Positions 7,031 through 38,409 of a DNA stretch of 64,000 bases are shown here, piece after piece. Both the position numbers and the translations under genes were made by a program. Each line of letters begins with the position of its first letter. The stretch's first letter is position 1. The DNA is from Favolaschia claudopus (taxonomy: Eukaryota; Basidiomycota; Agaricomycetes; Agaricales; Mycenaceae). A model generated the notes under the pieces. That model saw nothing but the letters and a program-made list of their open reading frames with translations. It had not been told where the DNA came from and searched no databases. The DNA is taken from contig JAWWNJ010000208.1 of the NCBI GenBank assembly GCA_037176885.1, positions 1 through 64,000 on the forward strand, read 5' to 3'.

Positions 7031-7118
7031 CCCCCAAAGTGCCGCCACTGCCGCAGTACTGCCGCCAATGACCGCCGAGAGTGTTGGTAAAAGTGCCGCC
7101 TCCATGGCGGCACTTTTG
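7031..7118. repeat. Short GC-rich inverted repeat
   Basis: CAAAGTGCCGCC near 7035 pairs with GGCGGCACTTTTG near 7106, and AAAAGTGCCGCC also forms a tight local hairpin at about 7089-7117. It lies at the junction between the DUF6532 fragment and the gag ORF and may be a tiny MITE or the scar of one. Confidence 0.5.
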
Positions 7119-8022
7119 TCACAATGTCATTCTCAAGCCTATCCCTCCAAAGGAATACGATGGCTCACCGGATGCCATTGCATTCCATCGATTCGTCAAG
7201 GAAGGATCGAATTATGTTCAATTCGGAAAAGTTCCAACCGACCAACGAGTGTTTTACTTGTCGTACTACTTGACGGCTCGTGCACTTGAATTCTACAACA
7301 GTAAAGTTGAGAATGACGAGCATGTTTGGACTTTGAGTGAATTCTTCTGGGGTTTATTCAATTTTTGTTTTCCTGTGAACTTCCGCGAGAAGCAACGCAC
7401 TCGATTGCGTTCTTGCCTTCAAGGCACTAAGTCAGTGTTGATTCACAAGGCCGAATGGGAGCGGATATACAATACCATTGGTCTTAAAGCCAACCAGGAG
7501 AAGGTCGTAATGTTCTGGCGGAGCCTCAACGCCGACATACGCAAGGAAATGTTCCGGGACAAACTCGATCCGGAAACCTCCTCTTGGGCTGAAGTCACTG
7601 CTGGTGCTGAGAGCGCTGAAATTATCGTCAAGGTTGACGACGATAACGATGAAATTGATATGGCTGAATCGAGTAAGACTCAATTCAGACCCGATGAACC
7701 CAAATTGGAAACAGATGTGAACGAGAAACGTCGTACCGGAGGGCGCGTTATCTCGGTTTCCAGTGCTGAACCCGAACCTCCCAAGTCGAAATCTCGTGAC
7801 AACGGCAGCCATTTGTCTGCCAAGAAGCGGAGTGAATACCTTGCAGCTGGTTTATGCTTTAACTGTGGTGTACAGGGTCACCTTTCTCGTAACTGTCCTG
7901 AACTCAACACGATGGTTTCGAAAGGAGGGCCTCCTGGTTTTGCATCCCACGCGGTTGATTTCGCGCTGAACGATGATCGCGATGCTCTGTTGGAGAGCAC
8001 GGAAGTTCTTGAACACTTCTAA
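7081..8022 (+). CDS. Ty3/gypsy-type Gag (orphan)
   Basis: 313 codons. The homologous part starts about 18 residues in (IPPKEYDGSPDAIAFHRFV), so the listed ATG is not a trustworthy start and the true N-terminus is probably lost. The retrotransposon gag core (about residues 20-160) includes YYLTARALEFY and EFFWGLFNFCFP. An acidic linker follows, then a CCHC knuckle CFNCGVQGHLSRNCP near residues 258-272. A TAA ends the ORF at 8022; no protease, RT or integrase follows, and LTR-like sequence begins about 190 bp downstream. It is therefore a pol-deleted, non-autonomous element. The ORF is unbroken, and identical in both duplicated copies as far as I can read. Confidence 0.8.
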   Translation: MLVKVPPPWRHFCHNVILKPIPPKEYDGSPDAIAFHRFVKEGSNYVQFGKVPTDQRVFYLSYYLTARALEFYNSKVENDEHVWTLSEFFWGLFNFCFPVNFREKQRTRLRSCLQGTKSVLIHKAEWERIYNTIGLKANQEKVVMFWRSLNADIRKEMFRDKLDPETSSWAEVTAGAESAEIIVKVDDDNDEIDMAESSKTQFRPDEPKLETDVNEKRRTGGRVISVSSAEPEPPKSKSRDNGSHLSAKKRSEYLAAGLCFNCGVQGHLSRNCPELNTMVSKGGPPGFASHAVDFALNDDRDALLESTEVLEHF

Positions 8023-10840: not shown

Positions 10841-11803
10841 TAACAGAATCTGAAAATGCGCGGAAGGCGCAATAACCTCAGTCTCCCGCAATGTGGGATG
10901 AAAGACGGTATATTGAATACCTGAAAATGCGCGGAAGGCGCAATAACTACACTAACTCGGCAAAAAAAATGTCCGATGGGTTTTTTGTCCGTATTGCCGT
11001 GTTAATACCTGTATTCGAGAGCAAACAACTTCTGAGCGCACACGATACTGAGACCGATTGTTATGCTACCTCGCCGCCGTGCAATCCCTTGATCCGCCAT
11101 CAAATGAGCAGAATTCCCAAATAGCCAGATTTTCAATTTGAGTAGGGATTTTTTCTGACAATATCTGAGTGCGCAGAATGAAAGAAGACCCAAATACAAG
11201 TACTTTCACAAGTCAAACCTTATGAAAATATTCAGCCGTTTAAGCGCTATAGGCTCGACAAAACTGCCATATTTCGGCAAATTCCGGTCAACTCGGTCGA
11301 AAATGGTCACTTTGCGAGGGCTATAGCGCCTGTTTGCCTGTATATTTTTCCACAGTTCAAATTGGCGCATAGCTCGCTGGACCTCAGGCTATAACATGAG
11401 CAGATCAGCTCCCCGCACCAAAAGAATTTGACTGACTTGTAAAGTCGGCCGATATCAAAATTCCCATGTTTGCGCTCGGCGTGATGGCGTATCAAAAATT
11501 TGCCCAAAACCAAACCCAAAGAATAAGGCATCTGGATCCTATGAACACAACTATAAGAAGCAATCATCGAAATACAGGCCAGAAATCAATCGGACATTTT
11601 TTTTGCCGAGTTAGTGTACACAATGATAAATACAAGTAAGTAGATAGATAGAGAACTCACCCTCAGTCTCCCGCAATGTGGGATGAAAGACTGAGAGTGG
11701 TGGACAGACGAGCGCGGTTTATATGTAAGAACAAGGCTGTATGATAAGTATCAGATATCTATCAAGGGCCGGAGCGGCGGGGCGGCTACCCAGAATAATG
11801 ACA
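10841..11803 (-). mobile_element. Inverted copia LTR (family A) split by a MITE
   Basis: From TAACAGAATC (10841) to the rightmost ACA (11803) this is the reverse complement of the 308-bp family A LTR, interrupted by a 667-bp MITE at 10950-11616. Its outer end carries a short deletion relative to the LTR at 46128. The candidate left target duplication is ACCAC (10836-10840). Downstream (11804+) lies the polypurine tract and 3' end of pol, so this is the 3' LTR of a minus-strand element. Confidence 0.93.
10950..11616. mobile_element. TA-flanked MITE inside the LTR
   Basis: The termini are CACTAACTCGGCAAAAAAAA and its reverse complement, with 28 bp matching. TA lies at 10948-10949 and 11617-11618, and removing the element restores the LTR (AAC-TA-CACAATG). 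No transposase ORF. Tc1/mariner-like by TA target. Present in both duplicated copies, so older than the duplication. Confidence 0.95.
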
Positions 11804-11997
11804 CCCCCACTCGACCCAGGCCGTAGTCCCATAGATAGACGGAATTTGGAGTGCTTGTCATGAGATAAAGGTTTTGTGAAAATATCGGCCACCATTTCAT
11901 CTGTAGGATACCACAAGACAATACATTCTCCGGTGCGAACCAAGTCATCACGGACAAAATGATATTTTCTTTGTATATGCTGAGTCCTAGCGCGAAG
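11804..11997 (-). pseudogene. 3' end of copia pol (family A), truncated
   Basis: The minus strand encodes the RNase H tail of family A pol: RARTQHIQRKYHFVRDDL, DEMVADIFTKPLSHDKHSKF, GLRPGSSGG. It matches the end of the ORF at 47817-51074 with a few substitutions. The match stops at about 11997, where sequence of the KH-element LTR begins, so the 5' part of this copia copy was lost. Confidence 0.9.
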
Positions 11998-12076
11998 GGC
12001 CCTCGATAACAAACCTGGGGATCAGAGATCCCCAGCGGACTATTTATATACAAGAGGTGACGTAAGATATGACATA
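11998..12076 (-). mobile_element. Fragment of KH-element-type LTR
   Basis: It matches the left part of the 185-bp LTR at 12929-13113 (GATAACAAACCTGGGGATCA to GACGTAAGATATGACAT) with a 10-bp internal deletion near 12003, then diverges. It may be a related LTR subfamily. The same junction is present at the end of the window (about 63983-64000). Confidence 0.7.
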
Positions 12077-12382
12077 CAGTCATAGAATGGAGAGAACAAT
12101 AAGGGAATGAAGAGGGGAGTACCCTCACAGTCATAGATAATAGAATGGAGAGAACAATAACAATTGAGAATGGAGCACAGCCCCATAGAATGGAATGGAG
12201 CACAGCAATGGAATTCAGAGAGGGATGGTGCCTGAATTGAGAATGAAGCAGACAATCAGTCTACAGAGTCAGGCACAGGGTGGGCATCCTGATGACGTAA
12301 TTGATCAGGGATCAACAGGATCAGAGGTTTTGATGAAATCAACTGGCCAGACTGTGACACATCCGACGCTTTGGTCCCGCCA
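12077..12382. repeat. Dispersed repeat, unit 12154-12326
   Basis: 12154-12326 recurs almost unchanged at 34888-35059 inside another element; both end in GGATCAACAGGATCAGAG. A shorter motif, ACAGTCATAGA..ATGGAGAGAA, is duplicated between 12077 and 12156. No coding potential recognised. Confidence 0.75.
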
Positions 12383-12819: not shown

Positions 12820-12928
12820 TCCCGCCATCCTCTTTGCTACCGAATCCTTTAATGCGGTGATCAGGGCGAAGGGTAGGATCCCATCAATTACCGGTAACCC
12901 ACCAGCACAACCGCAGACACACTATACC

Positions 12929-14513
12929 TGTAAGGGGAGAAGGGCCCAGGAGCCAAGTCGATAACAAACCTGGGGATCAGAGATCCCCAGTGAACTACTT
13001 ATATACAAGAGGTGACGTAAGATATGACATAAGTGAGCACACAGCATGATGTCTTGGAGACAGAGAACTTCTGCCCAGGTCAGAAGACGTCATAGCTGTG
13101 GAATCCCCTGACATCACCCCCTCTTCAAGATTCGTCGCCTCGACGAAGACCAGAGCCCAGTAGAATGAACGATCCTTCAAAATCCTGGATCGCCACGGAA
13201 GAGTAGGTTGCCCTGGGAGTCAATCCGCGAATCAGACGCAGACACTGCACCGCCTCGCCGTGCCGTCTGTTGTCGACGTCCCCTTTCAGGTCGGATAGCG
13301 TCAATGGCCATAGGCGAAGGAGCTACTGAACGTGGAGAGGGGGACGGGACCGCAGTGGGCATGGCCACCGAGGGGGCATAAGGAGTAGAGTTGGGGCGGG
13401 GAGTAGGAATAGGGGACGCCATTACCTGCGTAGGAATAGAGATGGTGGCAGGGTTATGGGGTAGGGAGTGAAAGGCGGGGTAGGAAGACTCCTGTGGTGC
13501 AAATCGCACCCCAGACTTCCTTGGCTGTGTAGCGGCACCTGGGTGCGGCTGAGCACTGGCCGCTGGAGGGGGTGGAACCGGAGCCGGTGGCTGAGACGGA
13601 TGGACGGGGTGTGCGCGCTTCTTCAGCGGGCGAGCGCCCTCGCCAGAAGCGTTCGGTAAAACCGGCACCGGGCCAGGAGGGGGAGGGGCAGGGTCCCCGG
13701 AAAGGCGTGACGGACCTTTCTTCTTAGAGCGGATACGCTTACGCATGAAACGCTTCCCAAGCGCAATTAGCGCTTCACCGATTTGCTGGTCGGTACCACG
13801 GATAGATACACGGCGCTCCAAGGGGGAAGCCTTATCAGTATAGGCTCGAAGTTGGGCGCCGGAGATGTCGTGCGACTGATGAAGACCCTTACCACCACGG
13901 CCAACAATATGCCCGACGACCGAGTCAGGCACCACAAGCGTACACGAGTAGCGGGACGGTGCGTCCTGTGCAGTAGGGAGGGTTTCGGCGAGTGGTATGG
14001 CGGTGTGGCCGACAGCGATGATGGCAGGGGTAGGGGCTGGGGTTGATGGTTCAGAGCCCCAGCGAGCGCCATCCCAGGAGAAGCGCCAGGCATGCCCTCG
14101 GGGAGTAGAGGCTGCAGTGTCCCCAAACTCAAGACGATCAAGACGGTCGTGGACGCGCTGTAGCTCGCTTCGAAGGAGAGTGCAGTAGGAATAAAGGTCC
14201 TGAGGAACTGCGGGGGTTGCCATAGCAAGGGAGGTGTAAGGTCGATGGTAGGATGAGGGCAGAGTAGGAAGTAGGGTGGTCGGCTGGGGCTAGGAGAGTG
14301 CCAGAGTCGAATAGAAGGTTTGTTATGCTGTAAGGGGAGAAGGGCCCAGGAGCCAAGTCGATAACAAACCTGGGGATCAGAGATCCCCAGTGAACTACTT
14401 ATATACAAGAGGTGACGTAAGATATGACATAAGTGAGCACACAGCATGATGTCTTGGAGACAGAGAACTTCTGCCCAGGTCAGAAGACGTCATAGCTGTG
14501 GAATCCCCTGACA
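12929..14513 (-). mobile_element. Complete small LTR retroelement encoding a KH-domain protein
   Basis: Two identical 185-bp LTRs (12929-13113 and 14329-14513; TGTCAGGGG...CCCCTTACA on the minus strand) bound a 1215-bp interior. The exact 5-bp target duplication ATACC lies at 12924-12928 and 14514-14518. The interior has a 105-bp leader, one 348-codon ORF, and a polypurine tract (GAAGAGGGGGTGA) next to the 3' LTR. There is no protease, integrase or RT, so it must move in trans. The primer-binding site is unclear: the leader begins GCATAACAAACC. Size fits TRIM or small-LTR elements, but those usually lack an ORF. Confidence 0.95.
13177..14223 (-). CDS. KH-domain RNA-binding protein of the small LTR element
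   Basis: 348 residues. A short N-terminal helix-prone segment (LRSELQRVHDRLDRLEF, residues 17-33) precedes a Pro/Thr-rich linker. A type I KH domain follows at about residues 92-158: LVVPDSVVGHIVGRGGKG with the GxxG loop at G108-G111, then SGAQLRAY and RRVSIRGTDQQIGEALIAL. A basic stretch (KRFMRKRIRSKKKG) comes next, then a long Pro-rich region and an Arg-rich C-terminus (RPERGRRQQTARRGG). KH domains bind single-stranded RNA or DNA, so a Gag-like role in binding element RNA is a reasonable inference. The start is chosen because the second copy (23556) begins identically after the same 105-bp leader. Confidence 0.88.
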   Translation of the reverse strand: MATPAVPQDLYSYCTLLRSELQRVHDRLDRLEFGDTAASTPRGHAWRFSWDGARWGSEPSTPAPTPAIIAVGHTAIPLAETLPTAQDAPSRYSCTLVVPDSVVGHIVGRGGKGLHQSHDISGAQLRAYTDKASPLERRVSIRGTDQQIGEALIALGKRFMRKRIRSKKKGPSRLSGDPAPPPPGPVPVLPNASGEGARPLKKRAHPVHPSQPPAPVPPPPAASAQPHPGAATQPRKSGVRFAPQESSYPAFHSLPHNPATISIPTQVMASPIPTPRPNSTPYAPSVAMPTAVPSPSPRSVAPSPMAIDAIRPERGRRQQTARRGGAVSASDSRIDSQGNLLFRGDPGF

Positions 14514-14756
14514 ATACCGTGAACATTGACTGCAGTGCGCAACATCTTGGGACATCATACAACGGTGACTAGAGAAATTTCAGAAAACATATTCCTATCT
14601 CCAGTTATGATTACATAATGACCAAAATTTTTTGAACCTCGAAATCGTTGAAATTGAGCTAAATCCAGCAGGTGTTGTTTTCGTGTCGAAATTTTTGCCG
14701 CGTGACGCGTGACGTGACACGTCATGTGACCGCTCGTTGTAAGTGACTGACGCCTA
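14514..14756. other. No recognised feature
   Basis: AT-rich flank to the right of the KH element's ATACC duplication. I see no gene or repeat. Confidence 0.5.
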
Positions 14757-23138: not shown

Positions 23139-23555
23139 TTGAAGGCACAGAGGCCAGAACATTCCGTGTTGTTCTTGTTTGGCGGTACTGAGAAGGCTCG
23201 GCCCGAATAACCTTTTATGGTAATATTAAGTGATGTACATTATATTTCAGCCAATTCTGCCCAGAAAGTATCGAAAAACCCACAGCTATGACGTCTTCTG
23301 ACTTGAGTAGAAGTTCTCAGTCCAGAAGACATCATGCTGTGCTACTTATGTCATATCTTACGTCACCTCTTGTATATAGAGTAGTCCGCTGGGGATCTCT
23401 GATCCCCAGGTTTGTTATCGACTTGGTTCCTGGGCCCTTCTCCCCTCACAGCATAACAAACCTTCTATTCGACTCTGGCACTCTCCTAGCCCCAGTCAAC
23501 CACTCTACCTCCTACTCTGCCCTCACCCTACCATCGACCTCACACCTCCCTTGCT

Positions 23556-24464
23556 ATGGCAACCCCCTCGGCCCCTCAAGATCTCTATTCCTACTGCTCT
23601 CTCCTTCGAAGCGAACTGGAGCGCCTTCATGACCGCCTCGATCGCCTAGAGTTCGGAGACGCTGCAGCTTATACACCCCGGGGGCATGCCTGGCGCTCCC
23701 ACTGGGATGGTGCTCGCTGGGGCTCTGCCCCTACAACCCCAGCCCCTACCCCTGCTATCATCGCTGTCGGCCACACCGCCATACCACTTGCCGAAACCCT
23801 CCCTACTGCTGAGGACTCACCGTCCCGCTACTCCTGCACCCTTGTGGTGCCTGACTCGGTTGTCGGGCATATCGTTGGCCGTGGTGGTAAAGGTCTCCAT
23901 CAGTCGCACGACGTCTCCGGCGCCCAGCTTCGAGCCTATACGGATAAGGCTTCCCCCCTGGAGCGCCGTGTCTCTATCCGTGGTACCGACCAGCAAATCG
24001 GTGAAGCGCTGATTGCGCTTGGGAAGCGGTTCATGCGTAAGCGTATCCGCTCCAAGAAGAAAGGTCCGTCACGCCTTTCTGGGGACCTTGCCGCTCCCCC
24101 TCCTGGCCCGGCGCCGGTTTTGCTGGACGTTTCGAGTGAAGGTGCTCGCCCGCTGAAGAAGCGCGCACACCCTCCCTATTCGCCTCTGGCCTCTGCTCCG
24201 GTTCCACCCCCTCCAGCGGCCAGTGCTCAGCCGCGCCCAGTTGGCGCCACTACACGACCAAGGAAGCCTGGGGTGCGATTTGCACCACAGGAGTCTTCTT
24301 ACCCCGCCTCTCACTCCCTACCCCATAACCCTGCTACCACTTCTATTCCTACGCAGGTAATGGCATCCCCTATTCCTACCCCCCGCCCCAGCTCTACTCC
24401 TCATGTCCCCTCGGTGGCCATGCCCACTGCCGTCCCGTTCCCCGCTCCACGCTCATCAGCTCCT
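23556..24464 (+). pseudogene. KH-domain protein, 5' part of split ORF
   Basis: Residues 1 to about 303 align with the intact protein at 13177-14223, including the KH domain with GxxG at VGRGGKG. The ORF runs on into the insertion and stops at 24551, giving a 331-codon chimeric frame. The KH domain differs from the other copy by a single residue (I to V after HD), while the Pro-rich tail differs at many. The remaining C-terminus is at 30105-30245. Confidence 0.9.
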
Positions 24465-26408
24465 TGGAAGGCTGCCGTATTGTGGAGGCAGTCAACACTA
24501 GGGGAATCAACCAGACAGAGCTCAGAGAAGCCAAGAATGACAGAACAATAGTGTGGTCATTCAAGAGAGGCCACTAGAGAAAGAGTACATGGTGGTCAAG
24601 ACCAAGAAGAGAAGATATGTAACTAATCTACAGTCACAATCAATATACGATCAAATATGTAACAGAACAGATCACAGTCTTGTCAGGGGAACCCCCCGCT
24701 TCCCCGACCCGCTCCGCTATTCCTTGCATCACTCCAGCCTTCTTGGGAACGCTACTCCCTCCAGACTTCCCCCTTTGTCACACCTTCCTCCTTCCAACCC
24801 CCCGTTCCCCTCCTCGACAGACTCCTGTCGACCCTGCGCTCCTACAGCTAGTGCTCAGCGCAACCCAGTTCCCTACTGGTCTTCCGGTCAGACTTCTAGC
24901 CCTCCGAGAGCTCTGGTACCCCCGAGCTCCGGCCCTCCGGACTCCGGCTCCGGTTTCCCACGCTCCCCGGACCACAGGGTATCTTCGGGCCTTCGTCGGT
25001 CTACGATCTCTGGACCAGTATTGTGATCCTCCCTCTTCTGGGCATATCCCTGGCTCCCTGCTACTGTTGGATCATCTGATCATTGATATCACATCATAGA
25101 TGCTGTGCTACTACATAGTTCCCACGCACCGTGAGAAGTCACGCGTCACGCGCACTTTTACTGTGACGCCTGGGCATGGACTCCTTACTCTGTTCTCTAA
25201 GGATTCTCCCTCTGCCCAGGTGAGTAGACACTCTTCCTCTTGTTGTAGCTAGCCCACTAAGGATTCTCCCTCTGCCCAGTGCTTCTTGGACTCTTGAGTA
25301 CCTCGGGCCTCAGGCCCTGGCAGCTGTTGCCCTTACAGCAGAACAGAGTCACCAATAGCGGACCCTATTCCCTCCTCCTCTGTCCTCACAAGAGTAGCAG
25401 ACCATCTTGGTGCATTCTTTGGGCATGGAGGTCGCTGAGTAGCCTCTGCCCCATGGCTTGGTGTAGGATTTGGGTTTTGGGACTGCAACACAAGTATGTG
25501 TGTCTACCACTGAAAGTCTTCTTCCCTTTCCCTCCTGCATCCCATGGACCCCCTCCTCGGCATTTGCCACCTCTCGTCGACTTCTCCTCTTCTTGTGTGT
25601 GGCCAACTGCCGTTTAGGCTCGTGCCAGATGCCACTGCTCGTCACTGGCTCACACTGGCACTTCGACTACTCCTTCCCCTCTCCCTCTGTGACCTTGGGC
25701 CTGTTCTTGTGTCGTCTGGCCTCGAGTCTCACTCCCCCTCTTGACCGGTGAGCTTCCTTTCCTCTTGCCTTCGTGGGTGTGGCTTGGAGGGAGCACTGTC
25801 GAGAGTTGCAAGGTTGCTCAAGTCCATATCTCCCCGGCCTCCCCGTCCTTAGGGGTGTCCGCCGGTGCCTAGGGACCTCTGAGCGCCTGCAGTCTGCATG
25901 GAGATTGGGTGGCGGGGCAACTCGTTGCTGGCAGCTCGTCGAGCTGCTACAGTTGCCACCCCCTTCCTTCGAAGGATTCTCCTATCGTGCAGGCTGTAGC
26001 CAACTATACCTCTTTATCTGCTTTCTCTGGGTACTCGTGCGTTTGTGCAAGAGCGGGAAGCTTATGTCTGGGCTTGCTGGGGGCCATCCGCTGCCTTCTC
26101 TGCAGCCTGGTGTCTGACTCGCACCCTTCCCTTCCACTCTCCATCCCATCCCCTTGACTCTGTGTCCTGGCGTCTGTGTGTTTGTCCAATGTAGCGTCCC
26201 CGCGGCAGCGGTGGCGTTGACGGCGGGGATTCATGATTCGTCTTGATACTGTTGTCTCGTATTGCATGGTCGCAATCATGAAGGGGGGCTCCATACGCCG
26301 CGTCATTTGATTTCAAGGTGGGAAGGTTGATTCTGACCTCCCCCCTGTGATGCTCGCTGTGGGGCTCCTTGCTCATGCGCACCGCTGCACTTTAGGTAGA
26401 CTCTGCCT

Positions 26409-29900: not shown

Positions 29901-30104
29901 GGGTTCCAGATGGGAATATCCTGGAAGGCATCCAGAAGTAGTTAAGCTCGGAGGCACAGAAAGAACGGCAGATCTCAGGTCCTGTGTGATGGAAGAACAG
30001 TAATGTAACGGAATCATAGATGTGCGGTATCGTAATAGTGATGTGTGGATTCGGTATGTGTGTGTCAGAATGTAGTAAGGTTGGGGCAGCATCCTTACAC
30101 TCCT

Positions 30105-30245
30105 TCGCCCATGGCCATTGATGCTGTTCGACCTGAAAGGGGACGTCGACGACAGACGGCACGGCGAGGCGGTGCAGTGTCTGCGTCTGATGCGCGGATT
30201 GACTCCCAGGGCAACCAACTCTTCCGTGGCGATCCAGGATTTTGA
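30105..30245 (+). pseudogene. KH-domain protein, C-terminal part of split ORF
   Basis: It encodes MAIDAVRPERGRRRQTARRG through LFRGDPGF and a stop, collinear with the last 45 residues of the intact KH protein. It resumes exactly after the CTCCT duplication of the upstream insertion. Confidence 0.9.
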
Positions 30246-30498
30246 AGAATCGTTCATTCTACTTAATGTGAGAATGGGGGTGAAAGAGTGGATTCAAAGT
30301 ACTAAAGTACAGGCTTGCTGTAGGTAGCTTAAATACTGTTCGGAATATGAAATGTATCTAAGGGAGAATAACACATGAATGTGCAGAGCACATTGTATCT
30401 AGACAACGTGTACTCGTTGGATAGGCAATGAGTAAGATATGAAATATAACTGCGGATATTCAGGTGGATGCATAGCTAAGGAATTTCAACACTCCCCC

Positions 30499-37547: not shown

Positions 37548-38063
37548 CGTAGTACGCGAGATAAAGCAAGCTTAGGTGCTGTGGTGCGAGAGGCAGAGTT
37601 GAGCGTCGCAAAAATGCGCAGTGTAGGCAAGTAGAGTGGGAGAAGGTCAGTTACGGCGCGGGCCAATAACCTAATGTGAGAATGGGGGTGAAAGAGTGGA
37701 TTCAAAGTACTAAAGTACAGGCTTGCTGTAGGTAGCTTAAATACTGTTCGGAATATGAAATGTATCTAAGGGAGAATAACACATGAATGTGCAGAGCACA
37801 TTGTATCTAGACAACGTGTACTCGTTGGATAGGCAATGAGTAAGATATGAAATATAACTGCGGATATTCAGGTGGATGCATAGCTAAGGAATTTCAACAC
37901 TACTGGGCTTTGGTCTTCGTCGAGGCGACGAATCTTGAAGAGGGGGTGATGTCAGGGGACTCCACAGCTATGACGTCTTCTGACTTGAGTAGAAGTTCTC
38001 AGTCCAGAAGACATCATGCTGTGCTACTTATGTCATATCTTACGTCACCTCTTGTATATAGAG

Positions 38064-38409
38064 TAGTCCGCTGGGGATCTCTGATCCCCAGGTTTGTTAT
38101 CGACTTGGTTCCTGGGCCCTTCTCCCCTCACGCCATTATTTTTTGCCACCACTGTAAGATTCGCGTTTTGTAACCCTAAGTTAGGACTACCTCCGATTCC
38201 TCTGAAATAAAAATTTCACCTATAAACCATACCCTAGTTCCTGCTAAATCTCGAATCCCGAAGGATTTTGAGCAAAATTGGGACTGGTCATGAAGTTTTG
38301 GCCGCAACCATAGTCCGCTGGGGATCTCTGATCCCCAGGTTTGTTATCGACTTGGTTCCTGGGCCCTTCTCCCCTCACGCCATTATTTTTTGCCACCACT
38401 GTAAGATTC
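38064..38409 (+). repeat. 99-bp direct repeat spanning the LTR end
   Basis: 38064-38162 and 38311-38409 are nearly identical. Each contains the last ~68 bp of the KH-type LTR plus about 30 bp of flank (GCCATTATTTTTTGCCACCA). Because flank and LTR end are copied together, this is a local duplication made after insertion, not a second insertion. Confidence 0.9.

Follow-up and report, generated by a model that had tools for sequence, protein, structure and literature searches.

A small LTR retroelement with a KH protein as its only evident gene

The window analyzed here, a 64,000-nt stretch of Favolaschia claudopus DNA (contig JAWWNJ010000208.1, positions 1 to 64,000), carries at 12929..14513, on the minus strand, a long terminal repeat (LTR) retroelement of 1,585 bp with one evident gene between its LTRs. 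Since this gene encodes a KH-domain protein, we refer to the element as the KH element. Its 5' LTR (14329..14513) and 3' LTR (12929..13113) are each 185 bp, run from TGTCAGGGGA to CCCCTTACA, and show no difference from each other, and the target-site duplication ATACC lies on the upstream (14514..14518) and downstream (12924..12928) sides. A polypurine tract, GAAGAGGGGGTGA (13114..13126, minus strand), stands directly before the 3' LTR, and a primer-binding site, ATAACAAACCT (14316..14326, minus strand), lies 2 nt inward of the 5' LTR. With paired TG...CA LTRs, a short target duplication, a primer-binding site, and a polypurine tract, the element has the makeup of an LTR retrotransposon, and it lacks the gag and pol of its own that would make it autonomous. 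A first-pass annotation made from the letters alone had described identical 185-bp LTRs, an exact ATACC duplication, a polypurine tract, and a single KH open reading frame (ORF) of 348 codons, and all four hold. Our findings confirm an LTR retroelement with a KH protein as its sole evident gene.

The KH ORF (348 aa, 13177..14223, minus strand) opens with the first ATG past the predicted RNA start, behind a leader of 148 nt that is 41% C and has no upstream ATG. A putative TATA box in the 5' LTR, TATATAAG (14398..14405, minus strand), has its first base 34 nt before this start. A second ORF of 226 aa (13767-14447) overlaps the KH ORF on the same strand in another frame; we did not count it as a gene because its start codon precedes the predicted start of the RNA.

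The profile, the GxxG loop, and the predicted fold all identify a KH domain. PF00013 matches residues 94-153 (13765..13944, minus strand) with E = 4.6e-6 and 26.7 bits against a cut-off of 21.5, and an AlphaFold2 model (mean predicted local distance difference test, pLDDT, 57.3; predicted template modeling score, pTM, 0.30) shows a helix at 10-39, a KH fold at about 91-163, and long disorder. The best Foldseek matches of the model are KH domains (1we8, PCBP, hnRNP K, FUBP1, and Nova), and a sequence-profile comparison ranks Nova-1 and PCBP2 first. PCBP, hnRNP K, and Nova proteins have several KH domains each; they are the nearest to the KH-element protein by profile and fold, but the latter has one KH domain and belongs to a clade distinct from the host multi-KH genes. 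PCBP-like KH domains prefer C-rich RNA, and we would guess that the C-rich, G-poor leader of the KH element (41% C and 13% G, compared to 32% C and 21% G in the apparently intact element L061 described below) suits such a domain.

Since no other evident gene lies between the LTRs, the KH protein could be imagined to replace Gag and build its own particle, or to derive from a Gag N-terminus, and its N-terminal helix, as modeled, could oligomerize. We compared it with the Gag proteins of two chromodomain elements of the same genome, L061 and L047. The model contains no capsid-like fold, and neither comparison gave a significant match (L061: hhalign probability 0.3%, BLASTP E 4.1; L047: hhalign 0.5% with E 0.13, BLASTP E 1.2), the hhalign match to L047 falling at KH-protein residues 21-84. 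Shuffle scores of the N-terminus were marginal in part: for the first 88 residues, 2 of 500 shuffles were as good against the L047-type Gag frame and 45 of 2000 against the L061 Gag N-terminus, and among four homologues compared with the latter, two gave 4 and 12 of 1000 and the other two about 180 of 1000, all in uncorrected tests on proline- and threonine-rich regions. The resemblance is a weak lead in proline-rich sequence, and a derivation of the KH protein from Gag is not supported. The earlier idea of a Gag substitute, taken in the sense of a capsid, likewise finds no support in a model made of a helix, a KH fold, and disorder, and we regard either form of a Gag origin or replacement as very unlikely.

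Family size, selection, and relatives of the KH element

We searched the whole genome of 264.6 Mb, in which the window is C208:1-64000. For F. claudopus, the published assembly measures 265 Mb, and 86.8% of its BUSCO genes are duplicated (PMC10905254). Both haplotypes of many loci are therefore probably included, which inflates the copy counts below. A 21-nt LTR motif, allowing one mismatch, occurred at 450 places (reversed control, 0), and a protein search, in which 116 of 1565 candidates were scored, gave at least 120 matches, about 58 of the 120 spanning residues 1-348 without a stop when counted by eye. Counting copies with LTRs and 5-bp duplications, as the first-pass annotation had proposed, we found a full LTR pair at 27 of the 30 best protein-bearing loci, and exact 5-bp duplications in 25 and identical LTRs in 20 of these 27 pairs. 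The remaining three loci have LTR pieces on both sides. Homologues standing outside LTRs at syntenic loci, the finding named earlier as speaking against a KH-carrying family, were not seen among these loci in this genome, where LTR sequence flanks 30 of 30. By their flanks, the 27 pairs represent 24 distinct sites, and the 22 sites with duplications have 22 different ones. Three locus pairs (L009/L011, L012/L015, and L016/L017) have flanks and duplications in common, as expected if both haplotypes were assembled.

Of 100 motif places listed from the 450, 48 form 24 pairs spaced 1,197-1,573 bp apart and 52 are unpaired, possibly solo LTRs or copies with diverged partners. No pair 300-1,100 bp apart, as internally deleted derivatives would give, was present among these 100. 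Two closer pairs of LTR motifs, C33:272128/272175 and C20:1537155/1537325, are 47 and 170 bp apart and are perhaps nested or tandem LTR insertions. The family is large, young, and recently mobile.

Of the KH-domain matches scored in the genome (150 of 194 candidates), 42 fall into clusters of several KH domains at 11 loci, interpreted here as haplotype copies of four host genes. By hand count, 80 among the other 108 have a score identical to that of the element at 12929..14513, leaving 28. The KH element family is likely the source of most KH-domain matches in the genome.

The KH ORF is under purifying selection, strongest on the KH domain. In pairwise Nei-Gojobori counts against three diverged copies, all of one subfamily and with mutation bias ignored, the ratio of nonsynonymous to synonymous rates (dN/dS) was 0.26-0.36 overall, 0.05-0.21 for residues 88-165, 0.16-0.18 before them, and 0.56-0.65 after them. 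One of these copies lies in the window itself (23280-24465) and gave an overall dN/dS of 0.26, with 13 synonymous changes at 62 sites and 2 nonsynonymous changes at 172 sites in the KH region (Fisher p 8e-7). The KH region of a second diverged copy gave p 1e-4, and the C-terminal part of one gave 0.06. The copy at 23280-24465 is part of a second, older KH element; its subfamily has diverged (about 90% identity), and it occupies 23280-24465, 30100-30263, and 37900-38131 on the plus strand, apparently split by other sequence, with its 3' LTR at about 37950-38131.

The first-pass annotation had proposed a search of other basidiomycete genomes, and homologues do extend beyond this one. At E <= 0.001, we found 66 protein homologues (7993 candidates scored) in Favolaschia, eight named Mycena species, Dendrothele bispora, Tetrapyrgos nigripes, and metagenome contigs, the closest being those of F. 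claudopus at 98% (60 member sequences). A wider search toward host-like proteins (60 matches among 97 candidates) returned the same family throughout, judged by names and domains. In a tree of 31 homologues, each of the four named species with several rows forms one group, Favolaschia adjoins M. citricolor (100/99), and another split (100/99) sets Dendrothele, Tetrapyrgos, and five rows from metagenomes apart. Such species-wise grouping would fit long residence over recent transfer, with details unsure on long branches.

That the homologues of other species also lie between LTRs is only indirectly suggested, by their ends and their contigs. The last residues of the metagenome homologues P0033, P0034, P0038, and P0043 are RRGDGS or RRGDES, and the window-element bases directly before the polypurine tract would read in this way; the Favolaschia proteins P0018 and P0020 end in LRRGDKS and LHRGDES. 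Nine of the 11 metagenome homologues lie on contigs of only 1,310-1,814 bases, near the size of the KH element, in a type of data where short contigs are common.

KH is a common host domain and this genome has multi-KH host genes, so the protein might stem from a captured host gene and be carried along as a passenger, without serving transposition. We built the tree with host KH proteins that had been proposed earlier, using 15 host domains from four genes. In it, 14 KH domains of the element type group in a single clade (100/99) with a long branch, distinct from the host domains. Its neighbor, weakly supported (82/89), is the middle domain of two host genes that have three KH domains each. 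Identity to these middle domains is 33% over 58 residues, the best by E-value, and 34% over 32, and a further KH domain of the host reaches 39% identity over 38 residues. A single distant clade indicates that, in this sample, the KH domain was acquired once, long ago. The earlier suggestion of a captured host gene is therefore possible as to origin, but the capture would be old. An idle passenger, on the other hand, is hard to reconcile with purifying selection that is strongest on the KH domain, with 66 homologues across several genera, and with one clade far from the tested host KH domains, and we consider it highly improbable.

Predicted self-priming and a candidate helper

The primer-binding site ATAACAAACCT is the exact 11-nt complement of AGGTTTGTTAT (14361..14371, minus strand), which lies at the predicted 5' end of the RNA and is the predicted self-primer. 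The chance of an 11-nt complement in a 185-bp LTR, over eight offsets, is about 4e-4 by a rough estimate with equal base frequencies. The pattern AGGTTTGTTAT-N20-50-ATAACAAACCT has 136 matches in the genome and none for the reversed control, and the roughly 100 matches at the top of the list all belong to the KH-element LTR type. The 68-nt 5' end folds with the AGGTTTGTTAT/ATAACAAACCT stem at z -2.43, 5 of 200 shuffles being equally good. Tf1 RNA is described as matching its own primer-binding site by complementarity over its first 11 bases (PMC7175516), and self-priming has been proposed for Tj1 (PMC4600332). Judged from sequence and a predicted RNA start, the KH-element RNA would show the same complementarity between its 5' end and its primer-binding site, and we infer this start and priming of the Tf1/sushi type.

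A perfect palindrome with 9-bp arms, CTGGGGATC-TCT-GATCCCCAG (14370..14390, minus strand), overlaps the predicted RNA start by 2 nt. In 94 of 95 pattern matches at fetched loci the two arms are intact, a count in which the pattern itself fixed the end of one arm and the loci partly overlap. Two matches carry the 3-nt loop in inverted form, AGA in place of TCT.

To look for a source of enzymes, we searched the genome with the KH element's own polypurine tract and LTR start. This pattern occurred at 395 places (reversed control, 0), and among the about 100 listed were KH elements and two other types, each with a chromodomain just upstream at its single fetched locus. LTR pairs spaced 5.3-5.6 kb were present among 42 matches, and L061 is the one such locus that we read. 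It has identical 333-bp LTRs, the target duplication GTGGT, and domain matches for Gag, protease, reverse transcriptase, RNase H, integrase, a Tf2-type SH3 domain, and a chromodomain, and is apparently an intact chromodomain Ty3/gypsy element of the same genome.

L061 and the KH element share the LTR start TGTCAGGGGA, the LTR/primer-site junction CCCTTACA/GCA, the length of 5 bp of their duplications, and the self-primer geometry. A block of the KH element that takes in the polypurine tract together with 10 bp at the start of the 3' LTR (13104..13145, minus strand) matches L061, at the corresponding position, in 36 of 43 columns (E 2e-5), a match that was partly preselected; the stretch CGTCGAGGCG upstream, CCCTTACA/GCA, and the self-primer geometry are independent of the search pattern. 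The L061 self-primer and site, AGCCTTTCTTCT/AGAAGAAAGGCT, are 12 nt long and differ in sequence from those of the KH element, and the L047 type, by eye, also looks self-priming (AGTGTTTTTATT/AATAAAAACACT). Since the three self-primers differ in both partners, they fit a covarying primer and site. With LTR termini, polypurine block, duplication length, and priming mode in agreement, in one complete copy, an L061-type chromovirus is the best helper candidate, and the KH element would depend on this type.

A helper could also be another element, such as an L047-type chromovirus or a Ty1/copia element. A search by a longer LTR start gave one genome place, and L047 was reached through a piece at 12003-12076, beside the KH element, which is itself chimeric. 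L047 is a chromovirus of 6.5 kb with 498-bp LTRs, and we rejected it as a helper with the same LTR, its LTR having no significant match to that of the KH element. It looks self-priming and has a similar polypurine tract, but its LTR ends and primer-site junction differ; a copia 3' end lies beside the KH element by eye, but this piece has a different LTR start. We consider a helper other than the L061 type rather doubtful. For the helper proposed in the first-pass annotation, a candidate exists in L061, and the KH element is probably mobilized by a helper; a search for the same primer-binding site in the same context gave no other helper in this genome.

A proposed RNA adaptor and its relation to known elements

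Together, these findings suggest a model, to which we assign about even probability, in which the KH protein works in cis as an adaptor for RNA binding or packaging, the enzymes come from an L061-type helper, and the RNA is self-primed. Transcription would start about 34 nt past the LTR TATA box, and the first 11 nt of the RNA, given their complementarity, may fold onto the primer-binding site and serve as the primer for reverse transcription. The chromodomain Ty3/gypsy element of the same genome would supply Gag, reverse transcriptase, and integrase in trans. The KH protein would be needed by the element that encodes it, as purifying selection indicates, and would most likely bind its own RNA around translation and protect it, chaperone it, or steer it into helper particles. 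Since it has an RNA-binding domain but no recognizable capsid or enzyme, its role is most simply explained as that of an adaptor, chaperone, or protector of RNA. Because the ORF stays under selection although the enzymes have to be supplied in trans, the protein probably acts in cis, favoring its encoding RNA.

Several observations weigh against this model. The argument for action in cis has selection as its sole basis, measured within one subfamily, and dN/dS among younger copy pairs spreads widely, about 1 or above in some, on few changes. The best Foldseek E is 2.5e-3, with no match at 1e-3, for a model of low confidence. As for the helper, about 20 bp of the polypurine match to L061 was preselected by the search pattern, the remainder of the two LTRs is unrelated, and the same primer-binding site in the same context had no genome match outside the KH type. 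The best fold of the L061 5' end holds the 12-bp stem but is no better than shuffles (z 0.04). In L061, the zinc-binding part of the integrase is clear while its rve core falls below cut-off, as does one of two protease matches.

The KH protein might instead act on the host, shielding the RNA from silencing or decay or aiding its export or translation, with no part in packaging. The model, which shows only a helix, a KH fold, and disorder, is consistent with this, and the nearest solved KH domains are those of Nova, PCBP, and hnRNP K, which are RNA-fate regulators. A freely acting protein, however, would serve all copies and leave weaker selection on each ORF, and the selection seen argues indirectly against it; we regard this explanation as unlikely, though a serious one. 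Extending the adaptor model, the KH elements may be long-lived retrotransposon satellites across mushroom lineages, without gag or pol, whose cis-acting KH protein marks their RNA for the particles of a self-priming chromovirus, a reading that we offer tentatively, at somewhat less than even probability. The packaging adaptor would then be the product of one parasite living on another. If this is true, non-autonomous LTR elements can evolve their own RNA-recruitment factor with a fold other than Gag. The KH element would then offer a compact natural case in which to ask how the RNA of retrotransposons is selected for packaging, and why a protein can stay in cis while enzymes are borrowed in trans.

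To our knowledge, the non-autonomous LTR elements described so far are non-coding or keep gag. Tf1 is autonomous, with gag and pol, whereas the KH element has neither. The geometry of RNA 5' end and primer-binding site in Tf1 (PMC7175516) is the same as that predicted for the KH element. Plant TR-GAG elements are similar in that one of them, as reported, has been seen transposing without most of its own proteins (PMC8704663), but their single ORF is Gag, whereas that of the KH element matches only KH and has no significant Gag similarity beyond marginal N-terminal shuffle scores. TRIMs resemble the KH element in having short LTRs, no pol, high copy number, and, in plants, 5-bp duplications, as described in PMC3532108. 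According to the same source, however, they are shorter than 1,000 bp and non-coding, with a tRNA-type primer site in plants (PMC3532108), whereas the KH element is 1,585 bp, has a selected ORF, and bears a self-priming signature. LARDs, defined there as large and non-coding with LTRs of about 4.4 kb (PMC3532108), differ from an element with 185-bp LTRs. Helenus, Ajax, and Cassandra are likewise non-autonomous LTR elements defined by an unusual component, but the component described for them is a small-RNA-gene-like sequence (PMC10886601), and Rfam gave no match at E <= 1 in 12900-14550. Among the matches listed in a search of open-access literature, with most subscription papers outside its scope, we found no LTR element defined by a KH protein.

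Two neighboring features lie in the window. On the minus strand, 11719-12359 is a chimera of 284 bp of an L047-type LTR (12076-12359), 74 bp of a KH-element LTR (12003-12076), and a Ty1/copia 3' end identified by eye, and the 241-bp stretch 12060-12300 that spans its first junction occurs in full at four genome places. On the plus strand, 7081-8022 holds an ORF of 313 aa that, by eye, resembles Gag of the gypsy type and has what looks like a CCHC zinc knuckle.
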